Shown: positions 40,766 to 41,914 of the stretch, in pieces
Layout: each line of letters starts with the position of its first letter
How positions within the stretch are numbered: the stretch's first letter is position 1
Origin: a bacterium
Lineage (GTDB): Bacteria; Patescibacteriota; Patescibacteriia; UBA9934; GWF2-40-263
Length of the DNA stretch: 49,323 nt
Direction: 5' to 3'
Assembly: GCA_020057555.1 (NCBI GenBank)
Contig: JAGVFR010000019.1
Location: forward strand, 1-49,323
Position numbers and translations under genes: made by a program
The notes under the pieces: model-generated
The model's input: the letters and a program-made list of their open reading frames with translations, nothing else
Databases searched by the model: none
What the model was told of the DNA's origin: nothing

Positions 40766-41914
40766 GTGTTTAATGTTATACAGAAAAAAGGAAAAGCAAG
40801 ACGCGGAAAATTGGTTCTTCCACACGGTGAAATTGAAACGCCGTTTTTCATGCCAATCGCAACAAAAGGTGCTGTGAAAACTTTATCGTCGAAAGACATG
40901 GAAAATCTTGGCGCACAGATTTTGCTTTCAAATACATATCATCTTTTGCTACGCCCCGGACTTGAAGGAATCAAAAAACTCGACGGTTTGCATAAATTCA
41001 TGAATTGGAAAAAACCGATTCTTACTGACAGCGGCGGTTATCAAGTTTTCAGTTTGGCTAGATTAAATAAAACCACTGATGATGGTGTTGAATTTCAATC
41101 TCACATTGACGGATCGCGCATGAAACTTACGCCAGAACTCTCAATGGAAATGCAGACTGCGATCGGATCAGATATTGTAATGCAATTTGATGATGTTGCG
41201 GCAGGTAATTCAACTTATGAGCGTTATAAGGAAGCAATGGAACGATCTTTACGATGGGCAAAACGATGCAAGGAATATATGAACAGGAGCAGTGGCACCA
41301 TGTCTCCGGGCCATCGGACTGTTGCCGCTGTTCCCTCCGACACGGCGCCACCGCTCCTGTTTGGCATTGTACAAGGTGGTACACACGAAGATTTGCGTCA
41401 ACGCTCTGCAGGAGGATTGGTGGAAATTGGATTTGATGGTTACGCTATCGGCGGACTTTCCGTTGGTGAACCAAAAGAGGATTGCTATCGTTTTACGGAA
41501 TTTACAACGAAATTTCTTCCAGAAGATAAACCACGGTATTTCATGGGCGGTGGAATGCCAGAAGAAATCGCGCGATATGTATTTATGGGTGTTGATATGT
41601 TTGATTGCGTTCTTCCAACTCGAAATGCCCGACATGGATCGCTTTTTGTCTGGCAGGAAGATCCTTCATCAATTGATTTTGAGAATTTTGAACAAAAATT
41701 CTATTCGCTCAAACACATCACAAACGAGGCCTTTCAATTTGATACTGGGAAACTAGATGCGTTTTGTGAATGTGAAACGTGTCAGACAACAACGCCAGCA
41801 TATTTACGTCATCTTTTCATGACACAAGAACTTCTCGCGTATAGGTTAGCGACAATCCACAATTTGACATTCTATTTGACACTCATGAGATCTCTGCGAA
41901 ATGTGATAAGATAG
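40766..41914 (+). CDS. tgt: tRNA-guanine transglycosylase with a repeat-encoded insertion
   Basis: 382 residues from GTG 40766 (encoding [14 protein letters not shown]). Family motifs: [38 protein letters not shown] with the proton-transfer Asp, [27 protein letters not shown], and [14 protein letters not shown] with the nucleophilic Asp. Zinc ligands lie in CECETC and the later LRHL His. The enzyme exchanges guanine for preQ1 or queuine in tRNA anticodons. Residues 173-198 are encoded exactly by hairpin element copy 6 and fall between the helix ending WAKRCKEYM and the strand LFGIVQGG, a loop where relatives have only a short connection. The frame is preserved, so the enzyme is probably functional. 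Confidence 0.93.
41283..41360 (-). repeat. Hairpin element family, copy 6, inserted in frame in tgt (core on minus strand)
   Basis: 78 bp, exactly 26 codons. Arms ACAGGAGCAGTGGCACCATG and the complement of GGCGCCACCGCTCCTGT pair throughout; all three differences are G-T pairs on the core strand. Translated as [26 protein letters not shown]. Confidence 0.93.
41904..41912 (+). promoter_or_regulatory. Extended -10 promoter within the end of tgt
   Basis: TGATAAGAT (TG-N-TAAGAT) ends 8 nt before the ATG at 41921, implying a near-leaderless transcript for the 41921-clp operon. Confidence 0.45.

Follow-up and report, generated by a model that had tools for sequence, protein, structure and literature searches.

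The palindromic elements of Rickettsia and Wolbachia (RPE/WPE) are short dispersed palindromes that lie in frame within housekeeping genes. They are found in orthologues at the same locus, and hotspots have been raised as a possibility (PMC3767692, PMC10969869), the study of R. japonica being undecided on whether hotspots account for the shared loci (PMC3767692). GTAG/CGTC REPs are small hairpin repeats that lie mostly 3' of genes or between them; some are intragenic, with tRNA pseudouridine synthase B among the hosts (PMC3733652). The MITE-like RU/ERIC elements of enterobacteria are non-autonomous repeats able to add coding sequence (PMC2759123, PMC10969869). In the open-licence literature searched, we came across no description of translated palindromes from Patescibacteria.

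We analysed a stretch of 49,323 nt (the window) from an 849-kb genome (G000). It encodes tgt, the gene for tRNA-guanine(34) transglycosylase, at positions 40766–41914 of the forward strand, and the gene is single-copy in this genome. Positions 41283–41360 hold a copy of a palindromic repeat, R1, of which the window contains six further copies. This 78-bp stretch is a real R1 copy, far beyond chance: against a covariance model built on the 59-nt core, it reaches 74.9 bits (E about 1e-18 per genome), the copy being itself among the six sequences that built the model. Its conserved core, of the 58-nt type, lies at 41293–41350 on the forward strand. Both flanks of the repeat match Tgt (Pfam TGT, PF01702, 471 bits; TIGR00430, 451 bits versus a cut-off of 307), and the reading frame of 382 aa is open throughout, repeat included. 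The original prediction of a hairpin element lying in frame in tgt with no stop codon agrees with this score and this frame. It had also claimed that the catalytic and zinc motifs remain, and indeed the residues at the positions of the catalytic aspartates and of the zinc ligands do not vary in an alignment of 28 Tgts of the family (A4). Judged by sequence divergence, Tgt is under purifying selection (89% amino acid identity between G000 and its relative G001 versus 48% at fourfold sites). The gene may nevertheless be dispensable in this genus, because an in-frame TGA falls within the zinc motif of the G001 gene, and a search of G002, a genome 97% complete, yielded no tgt.

The loop that holds the repeat is 102 nt long in G000 versus 42–51 nt in many relatives. 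Alignment with these short-loop Tgts, which lack R1, confirms the insertion that had been predicted. The size given for it, exactly 78 bp or 26 codons, stands for the repeat but not for the coding sequence: the stretch is out of codon phase, its first base being the second of codon 173, the hairpin pairing extends from about 41282 to 41361 (residues about 173–199), and the net gain relative to the 42-nt loops is 60 nt, or 20 codons. Since 20 codons were gained and not 26, part of the old loop was replaced by R1 or merged with it; the figure of 26 codons measures the hairpin, which includes a portion that takes the place of the old loop. Across the 28 Tgts, length varies in this loop (inserts of 0–36 aa) and in one near residue 310 (0–10 aa), the other changes being two single-residue indels. 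In an AlphaFold2 model of Tgt (pLDDT 88), which matches solved Tgt structures, a helix (151–175) is followed by a coil (176–196) and a strand (197–202), and residues 179–188 are the only segment with pLDDT below 50. The insert is thus modelled as a low-confidence coil between the helix and the barrel strand, as expected of a flexible loop and in line with the surface loop originally proposed. In the TIM-barrel fold, the helix-to-strand loops and the active site are at opposite faces of the barrel. The prediction that the element supplies new peptide holds at the level of the sequence only.

Read in the mRNA sense, the repeat folds into a strong hairpin. One may imagine that it is removed as a mini-intron or bypassed in translation, giving a protein without it. 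We consider this extremely improbable: every long tgt loop examined keeps the frame, with no stops in the seven genomes with R1 in tgt and in more than ten other long-loop genomes, which would be needless if the element were removed or skipped.

With a length of about 80 bp, R1 is a palindromic repeat of the short, non-autonomous kind, with a conserved 42-nt apical core and variable base-paired arms, some of which contain GTAG or GGAG. The covariance model retrieved 29 matches in this genome at E<=0.01, and 17, 28, 23 and 14 in the relatives G001, G002, G015 and G027, respectively. Three other genomes (G006, G019 and G060) have one copy each at E<=1e-5, the one in tgt. The exact core pattern matched only Candidatus Uhrbacteria records and one Candidatus Parcubacteria in the GTDB collection, a scan that may omit records of the window's own genome. 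The core had no match in IMG/VR, and Rfam identified two tRNAs in the window and nothing else. The first five copies of the window are intergenic: 13899–13982 (reverse strand), 16016–16096 (forward; the matching place is occupied in G001), 20868–20947 (forward), 35542–35621 (reverse) and 40671–40753 (reverse). The last of these lies just upstream of tgt, and the matching place in G001 and G027 is occupied in the opposite orientation relative to tgt. The sixth copy is the one in tgt, on the forward strand. The seventh (46810–46880, forward), which has lost its 3' arm, lies at the 5' end of an open frame of 643 aa (46730–48661) that has an in-frame ATG downstream of the copy; it may belong to the 5' leader or extend the N-terminus.

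In the five multi-copy genomes (G000, G001, G002, G015 and G027), where most copies were sampled and open frames were called crudely, R1 copies other than those in tgt lie between genes or run into one end of a called frame, in most cases the start. Only in tgt do copies sit deep within a gene whose homology continues on either side, and no sampled copy lay this far inside any other gene. A Y1/RAYT transposase (PF01797) is present in G000 and G002; none was found in the R1-rich G001, G015 and G027, and a consistent partnership with R1 is not supported. Insertion of the core into a pre-existing palindrome was also unsupported, as the core-less arm pattern was not found in G000, G001 and G002 (one arm family tried).

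R1 lies inside tgt in seven Uhrbacteria genomes of four genera (G000, G001, G015, G027, G019, G060 and G006), and is reversed in G006. In a Tgt tree made with the loop removed, the R1-bearing Tgts form two separate groups. The first comprises genera g1, g14 and g18, together with the short-loop G018. The second comprises G006 and G060 inside g5, whose other members have short loops or minisatellites. At least two entries of R1 into tgt are likely, the alternative being one entry and several losses. The Tgts of G006 and G060 are sisters. Their cores agree at 42 of 42 positions but point in opposite directions, and no other R1 locus compared has exactly this core. The same 42 bases, reversed, yield the loop peptides MSPGRRTVAVVPSD in G060 and LSEGTTATVRRPGD in G006. 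This suggests a single insertion followed by a reversal; two entries from a common source are possible, since the arms of the two copies are not recognisably alike. Orientation also differs in 11 of 24 matched locus pairs of the five multi-copy genomes. At these intergenic sites, the arms of flipped pairs are barely more similar than random ones (25.7 versus 22.0, s.d. 4.1; 34.7 in unflipped pairs), so that in-place flipping is indistinguishable from re-insertion.

The same loop holds other repeats elsewhere. Within the family, it is occupied in frame by unrelated palindromes in G013 (GTCATTCTGAG type) and G063 (ATTGCGAG type), and by further ones in G029, in G025 and in G012, G026 and G021 (CCCTCC type). 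These palindromes are multicopy in their own genomes, with two copies in the case of G029. Short tandem repeats (minisatellites) occupy the loop in G024, G017, G034 and G003. Outside the family, long palindromic loops occur at the same place in G117, G168, G115, G086 and G128, from five Patescibacteria families; these cases were chosen for alignments broken at this loop and give occurrence, not frequency. Their palindromes recur in their own genomes, except for the one in G128, which was found once. In total, there are at least five further kinds of palindrome within the family and another five across other families of Patescibacteria. An unrelated loop of the same length, which the original prediction had set against its own reading, exists in G013 (102 nt), yet it is another multicopy palindrome, and this strengthens the case. 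Beyond what had been predicted, the loop recurrently takes unrelated repeats, and R1 in G000 is otherwise limited to intergenic sites and gene ends. On the evidence of these sequences, unrelated repeats have landed in the Tgt loop repeatedly. A shared locus may reflect descent or a hotspot; the presence of unrelated sequences in one and the same loop is direct evidence of recurrence, and the answer for this loop is a hotspot.

Repeats other than R1 also lie in other genes. Their sampled copies fall in called frames in 9 of 11 cases in G021, 6 of 21 in G025 and 7 of 13 in G063, some of these frames being spurious. In-frame repeats were found in fmt, mnmA, prmC, rsmA (two inserts), radA, truB and ligA, and all seven host genes score above the cut-off on curated equivalog models. 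The fmt insert is present in G025 only and absent from the 29 compared relatives (n = 30). The loop at residues 128–144 of MnmA has different inserts in G021, G002, G024 and G000, and is a second recurrent site. The in-frame insert of mnmA in G000 resembles the GTCATTCTGAG palindrome. The window itself contains short tandem arrays of 8-nt units like AAGTAGTA/AAGTAGCA (at 14515, 22268, 24547 and 33816), another dispersed palindrome, TTATTGCCTGAGCTTGTCGAAGGC (10252, 14589, 20962, 21286 and 27234), and a third dispersed repeat, TGTAGYGGAAGGCTTYAGCCTTCCAGAAG (12511 and 29922).

We think it quite probable that R1 spread intergenically, entered tgt and stays translated in a tolerant loop, and that this loop independently took unrelated repeats. 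R1 would have spread in some Uhrbacteria, chiefly to intergenic sites but also to tgt, presumably moved by an enzyme acting in trans. The loop between the helix and the strand that precedes LFGIVQGG would tolerate added residues while the frame stays open, and R1 would be translated there, not removed, with no harm to the enzyme. The loop, the most length-variable of Tgt, would have independently accepted unrelated palindromes and minisatellites in other Patescibacteria, and this recurrence would result from tolerance, not from DNA targeting. Yet tolerance alone fails to explain why tgt is the sole host, given that none of the sampled R1 copies lay deep within another gene. The machinery of several repeat families might instead prefer a sequence or structure at this place, selection filtering the frame only. 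The three genomes with a sole R1 copy, the one in tgt, keep such targeting alive, and the opposite orientations in the sister Tgts of G060 and G006, the many unrelated repeats at this loop across the phylum and the second recurrent loop in mnmA are consistent with it. However, a target motif common to these inserts was not established. Their sequences are unrelated, minisatellites included, and would need a common targeting cause, and loop length also varies in relatives without repeats, which fits tolerance. We regard targeting as unlikely, and favour tolerance of the loop. A more specific proposal, that unrelated palindromes across the phylum enter preferentially at this loop and that the core can turn in place, recoding the loop peptide, is conceivable but doubtful.

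Another observation runs counter to the explanation by a tolerant loop. The R1 core is 79–100% identical among the tgt copies versus 20–48% identity at fourfold sites of the gene, and a core far more conserved than silent sites is unexpected under simple neglect. The hairpin might then be kept in tgt for a function at the DNA or RNA level, e.g. the control of tgt. The perfect identity of the G060 and G006 cores would be in line with this, as would the second R1 copy upstream of tgt in G000, G001 and G027. So would the covariation in the helix: 94% of the helix cells are paired over 96 R1 copies, with 251 double changes versus 63 in shuffles (17 of 20 pairs), in an alignment that was fitted to the covariance model and leans towards that structure. 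However, template switching can produce both paired changes without selection and the inversion of loops (PMC8794818), and for this reason covariation is no proof of function. Conservation of the core is common to intergenic copies and may be explained by mobility or recent insertion, while the reversed orientation in G006 is unexpected for a function in the mRNA. Retention of the hairpin for such a function seems quite unlikely. We dropped the idea that Tgt acts on the hairpin of its own mRNA by way of a UGU loop, as the reversed copy of G006 lacks it.

These results indicate that the occurrence of translated palindromic repeats extends beyond Rickettsiales and a small number of REP-rich species. 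Patescibacteria, which are tiny uncultured bacteria, have them too, in several unrelated sequence families. Recurrence at the Tgt loop answers the question of descent versus hotspot for one site, and the natural series of Tgt enzymes with different inserts offers a test of how proteins absorb new peptide.

Like the RU/ERIC elements, R1 is non-autonomous and adds coding sequence. Like the GTAG/CGTC REPs, it is a small hairpin found mostly in intergenic regions or at gene ends, and also inside a gene; it differs from them in its greater length, in the combination of a conserved apex with variable arms, and in the inconsistent presence of a transposase of the Y1/RAYT type. The likeness to RPE/WPE is that of a multicopy palindrome (29 matches) lying in frame without a stop, here in the tgt of seven genomes. 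However, Patescibacteria are another phylum, R1 measures about 80 bp versus 100–150 bp, and unrelated repeats share one site. Moreover, R1 is found inside one gene only, the habit of entering many genes being that of other repeats in sister genomes (G021, G025 and G063). Because of this restriction to one gene, and with no sequence link established, we do not file R1 as a member of the RPE. The resemblance to Rickettsia palindromic elements noted in the original prediction holds as a way of working, which R1 has in common with RPE/WPE.
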